Positions 3,462 through 28,445 of a stretch of 28,811 nt of DNA are shown piece by piece. Below the pieces are notes generated by a model. That model was not told the DNA's origin, did no database searches, and worked only from the letters and a program-made list of their open reading frames with translations. A program made the position numbers and the translations under genes. Origin of the DNA: Paraglomus occultum (taxonomy: Eukaryota; Glomeromycota; Glomeromycetes; Paraglomerales; Paraglomeraceae); NCBI GenBank assembly GCA_910592205.1, contig CAJVPJ010000321.1:1-28811 (forward strand). The letters run 5' to 3'. The number at the start of each line of letters is the position of its first letter. Position 1 is the first letter of the stretch.

Positions 3462-4850
3462 ATGCCTTTTTCCATCTTAAACGATCTCTTTGGTTGGTTC
3501 TATAATAATGAACCTCAAATAGACGATAGACGGACGACAGCTGAAGCGCAATTTAGTCTCGGTTGCCTTTACTTAAACGGAATTGGAGTAGACAAGGACG
3601 TACAGAAAGCGGTTGAATGGTATCAAAGAGCAGCTAGACAAGGTCATGCTGATGCGCAAAACAATCTTGCCACGTTCTATGCAAATGGAATAGGAGTAGA
3701 GAAGGATGGGAAAAAAGCGGTTGAATGGTATCGACTAGCAGCTGAACAAGGCCACGTTCAGGCAAAGTATGGTCTTGGTCAGTGTTATAAAAGTGGAGTT
3801 GGAGTAGAGAAAGATGAGAAAAAAGCGGTTGAATGGTATCGACAAGCAGCTGAACAAGGGTTTGCAAAAGCACAAAATGATCTTGGTTTGTGCTATCAGT
3901 ATGGCATTGGAGTAGACAAGGACGCACGCAAGGCGGTTGAATGGTATCAAAAGGCAACTGAACAAGGTGATACTGATGCGCAATGTAATCTTGGTAAGTG
4001 TTATCAGGATGGAACTGGAATAGACAAAGATGAACGGAAGGCGTTTGAATTGTATCAACTATTAGCTAAACAAGGTGATGCTGCTGGGCAAAACAGCCTT
4101 GGTGTGTGTTATCAGAACGGAATTGGAATAGAAAAGGATGAGCGAAGGGCAATCGAATGGTATCGAAAAGCAGCTGAGAAAGGGTATGCTGGGCCACAGT
4201 TTAATCTCGGTTGTTGTTATCAGCATGGAACTGGAGTAGAAAAAGATGAGCAAAAGGCAGTTGAATGGTACCAAAAAGCTGCTGAACAAGGTTGTGCTAT
4301 AGCACAAAATAGTCTTGGTTACTGTTATGCCGATGGGATTGGAGTAAAAATGGATGCACAGAAGGCTGTTGAATGGTATGAAAAGGCAGCTAAACAAGGT
4401 TATATTGACTCACAACATAATCTTGGTAATTGTTATGACACTGGTACCGGAGTAGGACTAGATGAACAAAAGGCTGCTGAATGGTATCAAAAGGCTGCTG
4501 AACAAGGACATGCTAAAGCACAGCATAATCTTGGTTTCTGTTATCAGTTTGGAACTGGAGTAAAAGTGGATGGACGAAAGGCATTTGAATGGTATCAAAA
4601 GGCAGCTGAACAAGGACATGTTGATGCACAGTCCAATCTTGCTTGGTGTTATTTGAGTGGAACTGGTGTGGAAGAAAATAAACAAAAAGCAGTCGAATGG
4701 TATCAAAGAGCAGCTGAACAAGGTCTTACTAATGCACAGTTTAATCTGAGTCAGTGTTATAAGAATGGAGTTGGAGTAGAAAAGGATGAACAAAAGGCTG
4801 CTGAATGGTATCAAAGAGCAGTTGCACAAGGATTTGTATTGAGAGAGTAG
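3462..4850 (+). CDS. Sel1-like repeat protein, 12 tandem repeats
   Basis: An intronless 462-residue protein. After a 26-residue leader (MPFSILNDLFGWFY...) it consists of 12 uninterrupted 36-residue Sel1-like (SLR) units, residues 27-458, closed by VLRE. Each unit follows the pattern AQxNLGxCYxxGxGVxKDxxKAxEWYxKAAEQG, the two-helix TPR-related fold. SLR arrays are solenoid scaffolds for protein-protein contacts; in fungi and animals they appear in ER-associated degradation (Hrd3/Sel1L), chitin synthase activation (Skt5/Chs4) and kinase-linked signalling. No signal peptide, membrane segment or kinase domain is visible, so the protein is probably cytosolic. Large SLR families are typical of Glomeromycotina. 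The open frame has no disruptions and the repeats have diverged at the third codon position, so the gene looks functional. Its partner is unknown. Confidence 0.93.
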   Translation: MPFSILNDLFGWFYNNEPQIDDRRTTAEAQFSLGCLYLNGIGVDKDVQKAVEWYQRAARQGHADAQNNLATFYANGIGVEKDGKKAVEWYRLAAEQGHVQAKYGLGQCYKSGVGVEKDEKKAVEWYRQAAEQGFAKAQNDLGLCYQYGIGVDKDARKAVEWYQKATEQGDTDAQCNLGKCYQDGTGIDKDERKAFELYQLLAKQGDAAGQNSLGVCYQNGIGIEKDERRAIEWYRKAAEKGYAGPQFNLGCCYQHGTGVEKDEQKAVEWYQKAAEQGCAIAQNSLGYCYADGIGVKMDAQKAVEWYEKAAKQGYIDSQHNLGNCYDTGTGVGLDEQKAAEWYQKAAEQGHAKAQHNLGFCYQFGTGVKVDGRKAFEWYQKAAEQGHVDAQSNLAWCYLSGTGVEENKQKAVEWYQRAAEQGLTNAQFNLSQCYKNGVGVEKDEQKAAEWYQRAVAQGFVLRE

Positions 4851-13336: not shown

Positions 13337-14770
13337 ATGACTGCATCAGTAGAAGATCAAAAAACCTTTTTCTCATCATCTCTACATTCTTCACCCACTA
13401 CATCACCCCGCTCATCATCCTCTCCCTCTCCATTACCTGCATTGTATCCCGTGCAAAAGACCGATGAACAGAAACTCCAACAAACTTCCTCCAAGCTACG
13501 CCAAATCGCGCCCGCTCCTCCATCACCCGTCAACGTCGGTGGACAATCAGACTATAGCGTATACCACATACCAAAAGGGTTCGAAGTCATTATAGTTCCC
13601 AAGACTGCTGGCACGCCTGACGGAAACAACAACTCTGTCGCTGCTCAATCCATCCCCAAGATTCCCATTTCTCCCGTCTATACAGCTTCTTCAACCGATT
13701 CTTCAGACCGCTCTTCCTCCCCTTCCACTCCCCCCTCCTCTACTTCTCCGTCCACCGCATCAAACATGCAAGCATCGTCCTGGAGAAAACGACAAAAGAC
13801 TGGTCACATTCCGCGTCCGAAAAACTGCTTTATGGCCTATCGCGAATCCATACAGCACAAGATTCTCAAAGAACGGCCCGGTCTAAACAACAAGATCGTC
13901 TCCATCATTGCCGCTCAACAATGGAACCGAGAATCCCCTGCCACAAAGAATCACTGGAGGGAGGTTGCAAGGCAGTTAAAGGAAGAACATCAGAAACTGT
14001 ATCCGAATTACAAATTCGCACCGAAAAAGAAGATTGGAAAGAACGGCGGGAAAGGTGTTGTCAAGGGAGCGATGGGGAAAAAGGCCACTGCAGGTTGTGA
14101 TAAAGAGAAGGCAAGACTGCAGCAACAGCAACAACAGCAGCAACAGCAGCAGCAACAGCAGCAGCAGCAAGGACAATACCAACAGATAACGTTACAATCG
14201 ACTCAATCGCAATCTTTCCCTCGAACCGTCTGGGGCCATTACCGCTCATCGTCTGTCGAATCATTTCACTCTTTTGTCAGCGACTCTTCCACGTTTGCAT
14301 CACCACCGACATCCTTTACATCACCACCATCGCCGACATCCTACTCATCACCCTCACCACACATGTCACTATCGTCATCATCGCCACTTCGCTACGAAGC
14401 ATACTCTGACGGTACGCATCCGATGCCATTCGAATTCCACCGCCTGTACACGCAGATAACGATGCCGTCATTGCAATTGAGCGAATTTCCATTCGAATCG
14501 AATGATCTAGTGACGCCCATCGATGTCGAATCGGTCGACGTTGGGGGTAACGATGGTAGCGGAGGGTGTGGTGGAAACGGAGCGTTTTTTGATAATTCTG
14601 CCGAGTATGGATACGACGATTTCATGACGGATGATGACGATAGCATGAGAGGATTTCATTATCTGGCCCAGGATGCGAACGGAGAGAGAATGGGTCAAGG
14701 GATTTTGGAGCAGCAGTGCAGGCAAGAGCGTATGTGTCAGCAGCAGCATGCGTTGGTTCCGTTCGAGTGA
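13337..14770 (+). CDS. MATA-type HMG-box transcription factor
   Basis: A 477-residue intronless protein. A Ser/Pro/Thr-rich N-terminus (1-150) is followed by a basic KRQK stretch and one HMG box at about 159-227. The box begins RPKNCFMAYRES and has the landmarks NNKIVSIIAAQQWN and HQKLYPNYKFAPKKK. The N..F..YR and YPNYK features are those of the sequence-specific MATA_HMG/SOX-type class, which bends DNA at AACAAT-like sites. A Lys-rich nuclear-localisation tail follows, then 17 consecutive Gln (262-278, mixed CAG/CAA), a Ser/Pro/His-rich region, and an acidic segment (DDFMTDDDDS) that could activate transcription. The gene is probably nuclear and regulatory. MATA_HMG genes are strongly expanded in Glomeromycotina, so a mating role cannot be assumed. 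It converges with the C2H2 gene at 18493-19581. Confidence 0.88.
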   Translation: MTASVEDQKTFFSSSLHSSPTTSPRSSSSPSPLPALYPVQKTDEQKLQQTSSKLRQIAPAPPSPVNVGGQSDYSVYHIPKGFEVIIVPKTAGTPDGNNNSVAAQSIPKIPISPVYTASSTDSSDRSSSPSTPPSSTSPSTASNMQASSWRKRQKTGHIPRPKNCFMAYRESIQHKILKERPGLNNKIVSIIAAQQWNRESPATKNHWREVARQLKEEHQKLYPNYKFAPKKKIGKNGGKGVVKGAMGKKATAGCDKEKARLQQQQQQQQQQQQQQQQQGQYQQITLQSTQSQSFPRTVWGHYRSSSVESFHSFVSDSSTFASPPTSFTSPPSPTSYSSPSPHMSLSSSSPLRYEAYSDGTHPMPFEFHRLYTQITMPSLQLSEFPFESNDLVTPIDVESVDVGGNDGSGGCGGNGAFFDNSAEYGYDDFMTDDDDSMRGFHYLAQDANGERMGQGILEQQCRQERMCQQQHALVPFE

Positions 14771-23474: not shown

Positions 23475-23730
23475 TAATAATAAATAAATCAGTTGAATAT
23501 ACGGTATATGATTATTAGAAAGAAAAACTTGTCTGTCACACTTTCCCTGACTCATATGGGGCAGACTGCAACAAAACCAGACAAAGTGAACATTCTATAA
23601 ATGAGGGACTGATTGTGATGTGACTGCAAAATTGATCAGGAAGACTGATGACGTTTTGCCTTGTTGATTTAATGCTCACTTTATCATACCAGAATGTGAT
23701 GAATATAAACCATAATAATAACAGGATTAA
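23475..23730. other. Spacer between the MITE and the code-4 segment
   Basis: AT-rich, with no gene seen on either strand under the standard code or code 4. Confidence 0.4.
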
Positions 23731-23762
23731 TATAGGGTTACCTCTATATATAAAATATTAAT

Positions 23763-23981
23763 ATGAAACTAATTTACATCAAATCCACTATGGAACCCAA
23801 AGGAACAAGGTGAAAAAATTGCTCCATATGTTTTGACACCAAAATTCTTGAGGAGTATCTAGATAAAGAAAAAATCACTTATGAAATTTACCAAGAAGAG
23901 CGAAAAATAATAAACCATAAACGAACATTAACCCCAATTTATGATGAACCAAGAAAAAAGCGAAAACTTGAAGAAACATAA
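23763..23981 (+). CDS. Small CxxC protein encoded in genetic code 4 (72 residues)
   Basis: Reading TGA (23811-23813) as Trp gives one open frame from ATG 23763 to TAA 23979-23981. The product starts MKLIYIKSTMEPKGTRW, then NCSICF with a CxxC pair (C20, C23), followed by a highly charged Lys/Glu-rich stretch and a basic end (PRKKRKLEET). A second in-frame ATG is at 23790. No family is recognised; CxxC plus a basic tail could bind metal or nucleic acid. It converges on the HAD-like gene with 20 bp between the stop codons. Under the standard code it stops after 16 codons. It is short and has only one TGA, so its coding status depends mainly on its neighbours. Confidence 0.45.
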
Positions 23982-24001
23982 GGAAAGTAAATAATTGATT
24001 G

Positions 24002-24966
24002 TTATTGTCTCTTCTTTTTTATCCTTTTTTGTAATACATAAAAAAGACCTAGACCACATAACACTAACACTGTAAGTCCAGATCACAGTAAAATAGACTT
24101 AGCATCAATTCATTTATTGTTGTTTGTCTTAGTTTTTTCTTTGTATCCCTCAGCTGCTTTAACAAAGTCTTCATCTTTGAGATCACTTACTTCTTGCTTA
24201 ACATGATAAATGCTAGAGACTTGGAGATCCCGAGTACACCTGTAGTCTGGCATAACATAACACATCTCCGGAAAGTTTCTTTAATTACACGAGGGTTATC
24301 ATCAATAAACATGTCAAAGTCAGTATATTCTTTTTCTTTTAACCATTGTCAGTGATAAGGTAGCACTACTCCTAATTCAGGATTGTAAGCACATTCTATC
24401 TGTTTCAGGTAAACATTTGGCAAATAATTTCAAGAGCGAGAGGCTTTGCTTATTTTATGTGGATTTCCTGTTGAAGGGTGCCTGCCTTTGCTAAAAGCTG
24501 TTAAAAGCATTATTTCTTTAATAAACCCTTCTTTATAGGCTAATAGTAATTCTTGTGCCAAACTTAATCAAGGCTTATCATCATAAGGATTTTCTGATTT
24601 ATCAAAAGAGAGATCTTGTTTTTCTCAGTATTTGAGTTTTTTGTAATTTTCTCAGTTTTCTATTTCTTTCTCATCAGCTTTGTCAACGTAAGAATAACAA
24701 CAAAGTTTCTCTTTATCTATATCTAGCCCCAAAGTATTATTAATATAGCCACCCGCTGCGTTTTTATAAACGATTGCCACGTTATTTCAAAACCTTTTAA
24801 AGTAGTCTTTAAAGGGCATTGATTTAGGAGAAGCAGCATAAAGTACTGCTAGTCTGCCTGGCTGTAAACATTCGTCTCAATCAGCAATTATTTTTAATAG
24901 ACGACCTTTTTCCTGAGATTTTTGTTTGATTAATTCATAAAGAGAGTCAATTTTATTTTGATTCAT
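24002..24966 (-). CDS. HAD-like protein with C-terminal membrane anchor, encoded in genetic code 4, one frameshift
   Basis: From ATG 24966 the frame runs about 321 codons to TAA 24004-24002 if TGA is Trp. The sequence shows nine such TGA codons, at residues 30, 60, 105, 114, 133, 179, 206, about 286 and about 295, against one TGG (208). Each sits in a protein-like context such as IIADWDECL, KRFWNN, ENWENY, KYWEKQ and RSWNYL. No in-frame TAA or TAG occurs. One base appears lost between 24270 and 24253; beyond it the frame resumes with MPDYRCTRDLQV. DWDEC (D29, D31) resembles HAD motif I, LLTAF motif II and FIDDNP (D222/D223) motif IV, suggesting a phosphatase-type fold. A hydrophobic helix (SGLTVLVLCGLGLFYVL) with a basic tail (QKRIKKRRQ) suggests a tail-anchored or sorted membrane protein. 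The HAD assignment is tentative; the code-4 reading is strong. Confidence 0.8.
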
Positions 24967-24992
24967 AAATTTATTTTAACATAATATTTTTT

Positions 24993-26760
24993 TTACTCAT
25001 CAACATAAACTGGCTTTGGACAAGTAATGTCTTTAAATTCATCTCTGACAAATGAACGAATATGATGATAAAAATATTCTTGTCTTTTATAATCCAAAGG
25101 AGGAGGGGTTAGTATAGTACTAGTACTAGGATGGAAAAAGATTTAATTTCTTTGGTAATTTCGGAAACACTTGTTTTTCTAGTTTTTAACAAATTGAATT
25201 TAGTAAAAGCACCATTAGCAACCAAGTGAGCTTTGACAATTCCAGGTTGAGTTGCTTCAAATAGAAAATGCTGGTATTTTTGCAGACCATTTAATTTCTT
25301 AAAGAAAATTCCCAACACAGAATTAAGATCTAAATATTGAAAGCCGTTGCCATTTTCATAACGCTGAGCTTTGTTTAATCCCGTTGTACTCGATTTTTTC
25401 ACAACTTCAACAATATCGTTCACACAATTTACCGTTCTTTTGCGATATAGTTTCTTAACCAATCCAAAACTACCATCACACTTGAATTTAGTATGTCCAG
25501 GTATCATGAAATTTAATTCAATACTTTCATAATAACCGCAAATTATCAAATACAGATAAAATCAAATAGTGGCATTATTTTTATTCTGTCCACCCGCGTT
25601 GTCACAAGTAATCTTTAAATGGGGTTCACCTTTATTCAATCTCTTAATGCCATCGAATACCAGGCTCAGCGTACCATTAGGACCTTTACCTATTATTTCG
25701 TCTTCATCGAGAACGTAATTAATTTGTTCGCGTACTGCTTCATCTTGAATACCACTTTACGCGGACTAAGATAATAAATCTTACTTGCCTGTTGATCGGA
25801 ATGGGGTACGTGAATGTTTTGTGCCCAATCGTAACTATAATGAGCAGTAGCGTCAATGCTACAATAATCAGCTTTACCTCCTGTTACGGCGTAATTATCA
25901 TCTACCAATTTTCTCTGTTGTTCTGCTAATTTCGTATTGTTGTTGTAATAATTTCTCTCTAATTTAGCCTTAACCAGACGCTCTTTAAATCTTTTTAGTA
26001 AATCTTTTGCTTCTTCTTCCTTACGAGCATTGTATTGTAAGCCGTTCAGAAAATGTTGGCACGTGTCACATAAATTCGTTCTTGGACTCATTATTTGAAT
26101 ATAAGGCGTTAATTGATGCCACAACTTGCGGAATGCGTCATATTTTAATAATTTCAATGTGCTATCGTTTTCAAGACCTGCAATAAAATCATGATAGACT
26201 GACTTGTAACTTGTTTCAGCTGGCAAAAGTGTAAGTGATTGAGTAATGCGATTGACATTTCTACCAGGACTTGGTAGTCCATAAATTTCAGCATAGTTTT
26301 CAAGAAAATTTTTAACGGCGGTAGCAATGGTTATATCAATGGTTATTTTGGTTTTTCATCGCGGCACTTTTTTTACATTACCATGAACGCGCGGTATTAT
26401 ACCATTCGTCGCTAGGTGATTTCTGATGTTTTCGAAGTGAGTGCGACCAATACCTAACATATTAAGATACGTTTTTTGACAAAGCGACGTATTGCGATCT
26501 CAGTAATAAAACGTTCGCTTATTAGTACGCGTTTTCTTTTTCAGACGTCGGCTGGCAGTTATTTCTCCACCATTCATCGCTTTCAGCTGGGCCATTACAA
26601 ATATATCTTGTTCAGATCCAGAAAGAGCTTGAAATGCCTCGCGTAATTTGGCAAATTCTTCTCTCGGAATCATTTTTGAACAACCACAATTGCAACCTAT
26701 CTCCAAGAAACGTATGGCTTTTTCGTATTCAATTGAACCATTATATTCATTATTTATCAT
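24993..26760 (-). CDS. DDE transposase-like protein (DUF7869 type) with TGA=Trp, two frameshifts
   Basis: The frame from ATG 26760 gives about 589 residues to TAA 24995-24993 after allowing three TGA as Trp (26502-26500, 26358-26356, 25564-25562) and restoring one lost base near 25745-25760 and one in a T run near 25133-25141. Two other Trp are TGG. An N-terminal Cys cluster (CNCGCSKM) is followed by LSGSEQDIFVMAQLKAM, HGNVKKVP, a CDTC motif, YCSIDATAHYSYDWAQ, GKGPNGTLSLVFDG, CDNAGGQNKNN and FMIPGHTKFKCDGSFGLVKK, and the C-terminal KRQEYFYHHIR...ICPKP-like end. I recognise this order as the RNase H-like DUF7869 family, which is linked to eukaryotic transposons. The third TGA falls where the family has a conserved Trp after GGQNKNN. 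A decayed fungal transposon with G-to-A changes is the alternative. Confidence 0.75.
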
Positions 26761-26830
26761 ATATGGATAGTCCTATATATAAATTTTATCATTTTGTTTT
26801 ACTATTACAATAAACTTATTTTCAGAAATT

Positions 26831-28445
26831 CTAAAGCACACAGTGGTGCACTGTAGTAACACCCTTTATTTTCTTTTGTCTTTCCATGTTACATTGCCTG
26901 GCATTTACTTTTTTGCTGACTCCACCTTCCCATACAAGTACAAGTGGCATCATCTGTTTCACCACCTCCTTTTTGTCACCTTCAGCACAAGACATTGGAT
27001 CAGTCCACGTTTTTGACAACTTCTGAAGTAGTTCTTTTTTTGAAAGTGAAGATCTTGATAATGTATGTTTGCTAGTACTAGTACTGTCAACATGGAGAAA
27101 TGGATATACATCCTCTGTGATGCCAAATAATCCCACAATCAGCTGATAATCTGCCCAGCTCTTTGCAGTTACAATGTCTTCATTTGTAAGAGCTTGTTCT
27201 AACTGAGCTTGACATTTGGATTTATTATTATTTGACTTGTCACCTTGAATTCCCTGTTCAACCCTCTTTAGATATAGATTCTTGATCTCACCTCTTTTAT
27301 ATATTATAGCCAAGACTGAAGTATAGCATGAGATATGGCAACTTTGGGTCATCATCCAACCCAGCAGCCTGTGGGGTAATTACAGTACTTGTGAACATTA
27401 TATTGGGATCACTAAAATTGTAGTTGTGGGTTTGGATAATAATGTATGTAAACTCGCCATTGGCAAGTATAACTGGAATCCCATGGTCTATCACACTCTG
27501 TCCACATTGGCATTGAATTGCTGCACCATGACAGAAAAAACAATGTAGTAGTAGGCTTTCCTTTGTTATCCCTCGTTCTATAGCAATGAAATGTGTGAAA
27601 AACACAAGGCCATCAAATAAAACCTGCAAGTTTTCAGGGCTGATCTGGCCTTTCAGACTGCTGAGGTCCACCATCAGTGCTGACAGATACTCCTTTACAG
27701 TCAAGGGACATGTGTACATAAAGTCCAGAGAGTCTGCTTGTTTTTGATGGATGGTGTGATCCCATGCCAATGTAAGCAAGATCCGAACAGTCAGCTCCCC
27801 TTTTGGACCAGGTTCCACTAACCCTTCTCGAATGAAGCTGATAAGTGGTTCAAGGTTTTCACTGAATTTGATCTTGGAGTGATTGAGAATTTGTGCTGCA
27901 GCCTCAGCAACAAGAGGCTCTGAGGAGTAGCCAACATACAGTCTTGTGATTTTGAGACACAGCAAGACAGACACCTAGCCAATTTGCAATCAAGTCACTT
28001 GCTAATTCTCCTTGCAGCTTGACAAGAAGACTCGCTCTTACACACCACAAGGCAATCATATTTTGATCAATGATTACCCTCCTTGGGTCCTGTTTGATGT
28101 CATCCATCCTCAAAATTAATTCCACCCATTAGTTTACATTTGGCACTCATTATGGCTCTCAACACAGCTGCTTTGGTGATTCAGTGTCCCCAAAATCATC
28201 CAGAGTGTGCCCCCAAAGAACACATCCTAATCCCTGCTGAAAGAACTCTCTCAAGAACTCATTCAGAGGAGTGCTCCAGCAATATACAGTAAGTAGTGAG
28301 CATGCATTAATACATGTTGCAAGAACATCCCACAGGTCAATGGTCCAATATTATCACAATGTCCTGACATTGACATGTGGCTTTTGCCCTTTAGTCCTGT
28401 TTCTTGTTGTTCTTTCATGGTACTTTCCACCTCTCCACTAATCAA
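26831..28445 (-). pseudogene. Crinkler/RHS-like gene remnant with a PD-(D/E)xK nuclease-fold motif
   Basis: Pieces in different minus-strand frames read in order: 28445-28263 (fragment), about 28262-28150 (STPLNEFLREFFQQGLGCVL), 28125-27904, 27974-27297 and 27355-26831. The central part has LTVRILLTLAWD, GLVFFTHF, CHGAAIQCQCGQSVIDHGIP and FTYIIIQTHNYN. I associate this series with the large fungal family of Crinkler/RHS-type proteins, whose C-terminal half has a restriction-endonuclease fold ending in a (Q/E)xK motif. Here the expected Lys of QTKN is His (QTHN), and at least three frame changes break the protein. It is a decayed copy and is richer in G+C than the code-4 segment next to it. 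The family name is given from memory of sequence patterns. Confidence 0.5.

Follow-up and report, generated by a model that had tools for sequence, protein, structure and literature searches.

How does a gene come to lie in fungal DNA with TGA codons at positions where its protein calls for tryptophan, and in what kind of cell was it last translated? The question is raised by a stretch of 28,811 nucleotides from Paraglomus occultum (contig CAJVPJ010000321.1; the whole stretch is called the window here). On its minus strand the original prediction had placed a single code-4 protein of about 321 residues with nine TGA codons, and it had proposed either transfer from a Mollicutes-related endobacterium to the fungal host or the joining of a symbiont contig to fungal sequence.

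Transfer from fungi to Mollicutes-related endobacteria is reported for kinases, LRR proteins and MGMT (PMC10507103); the kinds of partner are the same as here, but the direction is opposite, and the vehicle in the present case is a mobile element. A study of transfer into Rhizophagus (PMC5982333) states that, as of 2018, bacteria or plants had been reported as donors to arbuscular-mycorrhizal fungi in very few cases. Gene flow from a symbiont to the nucleus is usually inferred from single, old genes that are hard to date. The genetic code can serve as a label, that is, TGA at tryptophan sites shows, copy by copy, where an element last worked; because the code labels each copy, the origin, number and timing of transfers become testable by sequence alone. 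The hosts concerned are fungi that form partnerships with most land plants. Our literature search yielded no account of transposons written in a symbiont code within fungal nuclei and no paper that mentions DUF7869, the domain that characterizes the transposase described below.

The HAD-like gene and its transposon

Translated with code 4, the minus strand is open from 24966 to 24187 (259 residues); the predicted code-4 frame is therefore present, but not at the extent first proposed. The nine TGA codons are correct as a sum (seven and two) and do not belong to a single frame, since a small frameshift lies between them: in the alignment with the related copy on contig C199, the last two TGA codons sit in the other frame, so the count of nine spans the frameshift. 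The expectation that no other stop would interrupt the full stretch failed, with four stops crossed beyond the 259-residue frame. The predicted membrane anchor is found at the C-terminus, but the same alignment places it in a frame other than that of the main ORF (Table 1).

The HAD protein identifies three places in the assembly, that is, the window itself, C199 (47%) and contig C16 (31%), and five relatives among 198 candidates in the protein database. No relatives were found in collections of genome contigs and viral contigs, for which the patterns were possibly back-translated with the standard code, so that code-4 relatives could escape; four matches of the family to the PDB by sequence (E 0.01–0.2) were taken as chance. 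In a fold comparison made with the C199 copy, the protein is 12–14% identical to HAD-superfamily phosphatases (AphA class B acid phosphatase), from which it differs by having no Pfam match, a hydrophobic C-terminal tail and a variable core; its enzyme activity is putative.

The odd gene is a passenger in a decayed transposon copy, one of a family with a DUF7869, DDE-fold transposase. When the window is aligned with C199, the similarity runs from the end of the transposase gene through the HAD gene to a small convergent ORF (the MEPKNY ORF) and halts abruptly, at 23553 and 33873. A scan of contig DNA for the 35-bp core of this right end, with up to nine mismatches allowed, returned 19 rows with only 0–3 mismatches, which represent 17 distinct places. 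At the other end, the boundary motif that precedes the transposase ATG is clear in 15 of the 19 copies listed, partial in two and absent from two. The family thus has the defined, repeated ends of a DDE transposon (the right core and the left boundary); the two ends are unalike, and no target-site duplication was visible by eye in the terminal alignments. Based on the right-end stop and on the left boundary common to copies, the element in the window extends over about 3.2 kb (about 23557–26790); those on C174 and C1 measure about 4.0 kb and about 3.8 kb, the left border on C1 being less sure.

A search of the assembly (32.3 Mb, 1408 contigs) with the transposase gave 131 matched stretches; the genome of P. 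occultum is described in PMC9453076 as 39.6 Mb in size and repeat-poor. In the fungal DNA that flanks the element, the HMG-box ORF matches, after the P. occultum protein, named proteins that are all from arbuscular-mycorrhizal fungi (down to P0153). Two rRNA primer patterns had no match, and rDNA seems to be missing from the contigs. The window is the one contig tied by a match to a named fungus; contigs C1, C125, C174, C458 and C199 were called fungal by eye, from their ORF pattern alone.

Table 1. Features of the window (positions in nucleotides from its first letter).
Feature	Position	Strand	Remarks
Sel1-repeat gene, fungal flank	3462..4850	+	standard code; 13 TGG, 0 TGA
HMG-box gene, fungal flank	13337..14770	+	matches a Paraglomus occultum protein
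Right-terminal module	23553..23800	.	at least 43 matches in the assembly
Right element terminus, 35-bp core	23557..23591	+	17 distinct places with 0–3 mismatches
MEPKNY ORF	23763..23981	+	internal deletion, one TGA; basic PRKKRK tail retained
HAD gene, C-terminal part with membrane anchor	24007..24250	-	different frame past a small frameshift; two more TGA; from alignment with the C199 copy
Putative HAD-fold cargo gene, main frame	24187..24966	-	259 residues under code 4; 7 TGA, 1 TGG
Transposase, C-terminal part with DUF7869 domain	25109..25756	-	other frame; TGA at Trp site 401
DUF7869 transposase, N-terminal and central part	25693..26760	-	two in-frame TGA, at Trp sites 87 and 135
Left element terminus	26761..26793	-	copies agree over about 30 bp upstream of the transposase ATG and differ beyond
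Two overlapping standard-code ORFs past the left terminus	26831..27974	-	26831–27355 and 27297–27974; outside the element

A larger element of 8 kb with long terminal inverted repeats (500-bp inverted ends) was considered for C458 and C174, where the small ORF occurs in two copies that flank a transposase. It was dropped because smaller elements and solo right ends agree better with the boundary that copies have in common, about 30 bp upstream of the ATG.

The motif ATATAGGATTACC (zero or one mismatch) occurs at window position 23730, at L061:692 and at L061:4708, preceding transposase and small ORF alike; it is a candidate promoter, binding site or element border. A kinase-like ORF with eight TGG and one TGA immediately precedes the left end of the transposase copies on C125 (L017:1-1245) and C1306 (L019), and its DNA is 77% identical between the two contigs; the ORF may be carried along by the element or indicate a common insertion site.

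Evolution of the transposase where TGA is tryptophan

The DUF7869 domain of the window transposase scores 60.1 bits in Pfam, and that of the C1 copy 62.8 bits (cut-off, 26). Foldseek alone gave no match to the transposase at E 0.001 or better; when its candidates were re-examined with VIA-align, a DDE fold was found, that is, an RNase H-like catalytic core with acidic residues. Two PDB matches by sequence (E about 0.2, ribosomal protein) were taken as chance. The collections of genome contigs and viral contigs contained no transposase relatives, again with patterns that were possibly standard-code and that code-4 relatives could escape. On C1 a single code-4 frame, 615 codons between stops, holds the gene, with four TGA and one TGG.

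We compared 27 copies of the transposase (20 and six loci from two assembly searches, plus L061; two of the copies are on one contig). These are better preserved than average because they were chosen as high-scoring matches; weaker matches contain many TAA and TAG codons. At five tryptophan sites the copies have 70 TGA, 41 TGG, two TAG and one ACA; the remaining 12,092 codons include 44 stops (20 TAA, 15 TGA and nine TAG). Site 87 is TGA in all 22 of 22 copies, sites 135, 214 and 310 alternate between TGA and TGG among copies, and no copy has more than five TGA. On a copy tree that was built without the five sites, at least 18 switches between TGA and TGG are needed, versus two TAG. The median pairwise dN/dS under code 4 is 0.14 (299 pairs, L025 excluded), and the values in the shifted frames are 1.32 and 1.45 (300 pairs each). 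The dS to the nearest neighbor is 0.31–0.94 for 26 of the 27 copies and 2.07 for L025.

The tryptophan-site counts and the dN/dS of 0.14 lead us to conclude that the transposon family evolved where TGA encodes tryptophan; with TGA at tryptophan sites in synonymous exchange, its code is that of table 4 (the Mycoplasma/Spiroplasma code). The proposal of code 4 for the window gene is upheld by the same counts, by the switches on the tree and by dN/dS. Together, dN/dS and the nearest-neighbor dS further indicate that most of the divergence between copies arose under selection on the protein with TGA read as tryptophan; such selection is not expected in a nucleus where TGA means stop.

We give practically no credence to random decay of a standard-code gene or to read-through of TGA by the fungus. 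Some copies are clearly degraded, but decay by G-to-A change predicts about as many TAG as TGA at tryptophan codons, and the observed ratio of two to 70 bears out the original argument against it; decay would also be expected to leave stops elsewhere, where the copies show the 44 counted above. Read-through of up to five TGA per copy is an unlikely basis for selection, and the flanking Sel1-repeat gene, with TGG only, speaks against both processes.

Cargo genes and a code-4 contig in the assembly

The cargo located between the transposase and the right end varies from element to element: the window and C199 carry a HAD gene; C1, C458 and C117 carry coiled-coil and zinc-ribbon-like/coiled-coil genes; and C174 carries a membrane protein and a cysteine-rich protein. 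Further genes of other kinds also occur as cargo; all these descriptions were made by eye. Five TGA-rich cargo genes contain 28 TGA and three TGG, and their codon usage is at a distance of 0.52 from that of C16 versus 1.06 from that of five fungal-type ORFs; the corresponding distances for the transposase are 0.63 and 0.89. Four genes stand outside this codon count, that is, both cargo genes of C458 and the coiled-coil genes of C1 and C125. These are less clear: on C458, the coiled-coil gene has two TGA and one TGG and the zinc gene one TGA and three TGG; the coiled-coil genes of C1 and C125 have two TGA each, with two TGG and none, respectively.

On C16 the HAD gene has relatives at 28–32% identity and the zinc/coiled-coil gene at 35–54%. 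The small ORF is also represented there, at 59% identity to the C199 copy and at up to 76% to others; for the remaining cargo tested, C16 showed no relatives at the cut-offs used. The contig is 79 kb in length with a GC content of 0.32. Its ORFs of at least 100 codons occupy 84% of the length under code 4 and 50% under the standard code, and they include 317 TGA and 103 TGG; ARAGORN identifies a tRNA with anticodon TCA (labelled SeC) together with tRNA-Trp(CCA). We take this combination of code and tRNAs to be the Mollicutes pattern. The right-end core is absent from C16 (best, 14 mismatches of 35), and the likely symbiont contigs C1324, C877 and C1244 do not appear among the best transposase candidates listed.

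C16 (L004-L011) is a long stretch of code-4 endobacterial genome within the fungal assembly; by eye, it encodes gyrase-, AIG1-GTPase- and LRR-like proteins. C1324 looks to be a further contig of this kind. A short stretch at G000:C27:18478-18771 has 55% identity to the gyrase-like protein of C16, with one TGA and two TAA, and is perhaps an old symbiont-derived pseudogene.

The window and C199 elements were also compared part by part. The end of the transposase, the small ORF with its spacer and the noncoding right end are all 90–91% identical; in the HAD gene, the first 35 codons are 88% identical, the C-terminal part 89% and the core 49%. The low-identity core (window 24330–24861 versus C199), set between flanks of 88–91%, has the form of a swapped cassette; as judged from the alignment, the difference can be explained by recombination exchange between related genes and hardly by steady divergence in place.

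Relatives in other fungi and in Candidatus Moeniiplasma

A protein search with the C1 transposase identified Ambispora leptoticha, Geosiphon pyriformis, Diversispora eburnea and Gigaspora rosea among the best 120 of 522 matches, and one Geosiphon family protein is annotated on a contig of 1.19 Mb. Among the 52 tryptophan sites that fall within the span of 12 family gene models annotated in such fungi, 31 are gapped, 20 are Trp and one is Arg, with 23% gaps over all positions; site 310 is missing from all 12. As a control, eight standard-code relatives from Rhizophagus and Gigaspora have gaps at two of 40 such sites, with 9% gaps over all positions, and all eight have Trp at site 310. The gapped sites are probably places where gene finders stepped over TGA stops, the presence of TGA in those fungi being deduced from protein models; if so, fungal gene models in the databases probably contain false introns that skip TGA codons. 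The Geosiphon model P0022 stops right before site 401, and P0022 and P0016 are 92–93% identical, gaps excluded, to the P. occultum copy L017. In another Geosiphon model, P0042, the transposase continues into a HAD-like stretch (by eye), so the pairing of transposase and HAD gene seems to be present in Geosiphon.

False introns or early ends at TGA-coded tryptophan sites are suspected in P0015, P0016, P0021, P0022, P0023 and P0042. At sites 87, 135 and 401 the eight standard-code relatives mostly have residues other than Trp, among them Phe, Tyr and Asn, two gapped cells excepted; these tryptophan codons may therefore have arisen as TGA inside the symbiont-code family.

The annotations in other fungi bear on the concern that symbiont and fungal reads were joined in a chimeric assembly or that the assembly is contaminated. 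A symbiont-type contig is indeed present in this assembly, and symbiont contigs with GC of 29–33% occur in public fungal assemblies, those of Paraglomeraceae included (PMC11423566). However, the same ends recur on many contigs and the family is annotated in other fungi, once on the long Geosiphon contig, and we consider a chimera very improbable. The one-off contig join that had been offered as an alternative to transfer is replaced by a repeated element with defined ends, with family members annotated in Geosiphon, Ambispora, Diversispora and Gigaspora. Contamination is, then, not always the cause of symbiont-code ORFs in fungal assemblies.

A tree built from 43 chosen rows, for which the program warns of long branches, places a Moeniiplasma protein (P0059) together with two metagenome proteins as sister to the TGA family (99/97), with the standard-code Rhizophagus and Gigaspora proteins outside. 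P0059, a DUF7869 protein of Candidatus Moeniiplasma glomeromycotorum, has 52% identity to the family but only 329 residues; it is the only named symbiont relative listed, and no close copy of the element was found within a symbiont. The standard-code DUF7869 (PF25273) proteins of Rhizophagus and Gigaspora have the same domain, with homology over most of their length and 36–40% identity; however, they stand apart in the tree and retain tryptophan at site 310, whereas the TGA family uses TGA as tryptophan and carries symbiont-like cargo. Among the matches listed are also three DUF7869 proteins of about 35% identity that are labelled Desulfobacterales, Nitrososphaeraceae and Planctomycetota (P0043, P0054 and P0056); they may be either real prokaryotic copies or contamination.

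Code 4 is not exclusive to Mollicutes, and the home in which TGA was tryptophan could in principle have been the fungal mitochondrion or another symbiont; we regard this as improbable, since two cargo genes and the small element gene have relatives on the code-4 bacterial contig C16, and the named sister transposase is from Moeniiplasma. The same two observations point to a Mollicute home and support the Mollicute-type endobacterium of the original prediction.

Probable transfer to fungal nuclei

We consider it likely that Mollicute endobacteria are the code-4 home and that transposition repeatedly brought elements with symbiont cargo into fungal nuclei; the home in a Moeniiplasma-type symbiont, the repetition of the transfer and the route of DNA or protein to the nucleus are what we infer from the comparisons above. 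A DDE transposon, the other relatives of which in these fungi use the standard code, would have settled in code-4 endobacteria. In that code-4 cell, most likely of the Ca. Moeniiplasma lineage, selection would have kept the transposase and the small accessory gene, and symbiont genes would have gathered as cargo between the transposase and the right end. The DDE transposase of the element would then have inserted copies with their cargo, many times, into the nuclear DNA of P. occultum and of other arbuscular-mycorrhizal fungi. That insertion was by the element's own transposase is suggested by the defined ends; the nuclear copies would decay because transposase and cargo are not fully translatable there. 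These observations suggest that mobile elements carry symbiont genes into host chromosomes. From the original interpretation, symbiont-to-host transfer is retained together with code 4 and the Mollicute-type endobacterium, the moved unit being a transposon and not a single gene.

Alternatively, a few code-4 elements may have entered the fungus and later spread within the nucleus with transposase supplied in trans by the symbiont or by a standard-code relative. This is possible but doubtful. The very high copy number and the solo right ends are consistent with it, and the identity of about 90% between the window and C199 elements outside the HAD core fits nuclear duplication too; unselected nuclear copies would, however, diverge, yet the dN/dS is 0.14 and the nearest-neighbor dS is mostly 0.3–0.9. 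These two measures are the reason for preferring repeated transfer. Copies that are nearly identical may have been merged in the assembly, however, so that the absence of close copy pairs is weak evidence.

An element-borne suppressor tRNA that would enable the nucleus to read TGA was considered and rejected, as ARAGORN found none on seven element loci (L060, L061, L025, L062, L016, L002 and L017).

The small accessory ORF

A run of four basic residues is present near the end of the small ORF in 12 of 14 distinct complete copies (PRKKRK in eight). The C16 homologue is without such a run; as background, one of 61 C16 ORFs of at least 150 residues has one within its last 40 residues. We take the basic tail to resemble a classical nuclear-import signal, a putative role. 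The dN/dS of the small ORF is 0.12 (67 pairs, 13 copies), and 10 of the 13 copies have no tryptophan codon; because tryptophan codons are mostly lacking, the ORF is readable under both codes, and on its codon content it could be the only gene of the element that the host nucleus is able to express.

A more specific proposal, which we put forward tentatively and think rather unlikely, is that a transposase made in the symbiont and the basic-tailed accessory protein would together form a conduit, with the element transposing directly to the nucleus, repeatedly and in several mycorrhizal lineages. If this were true, the variable cargo cores in near-identical frames would be a symbiont repertoire in the course of delivery. 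The small ORF also has a weak match to Viral_Rep, below the cut-off.
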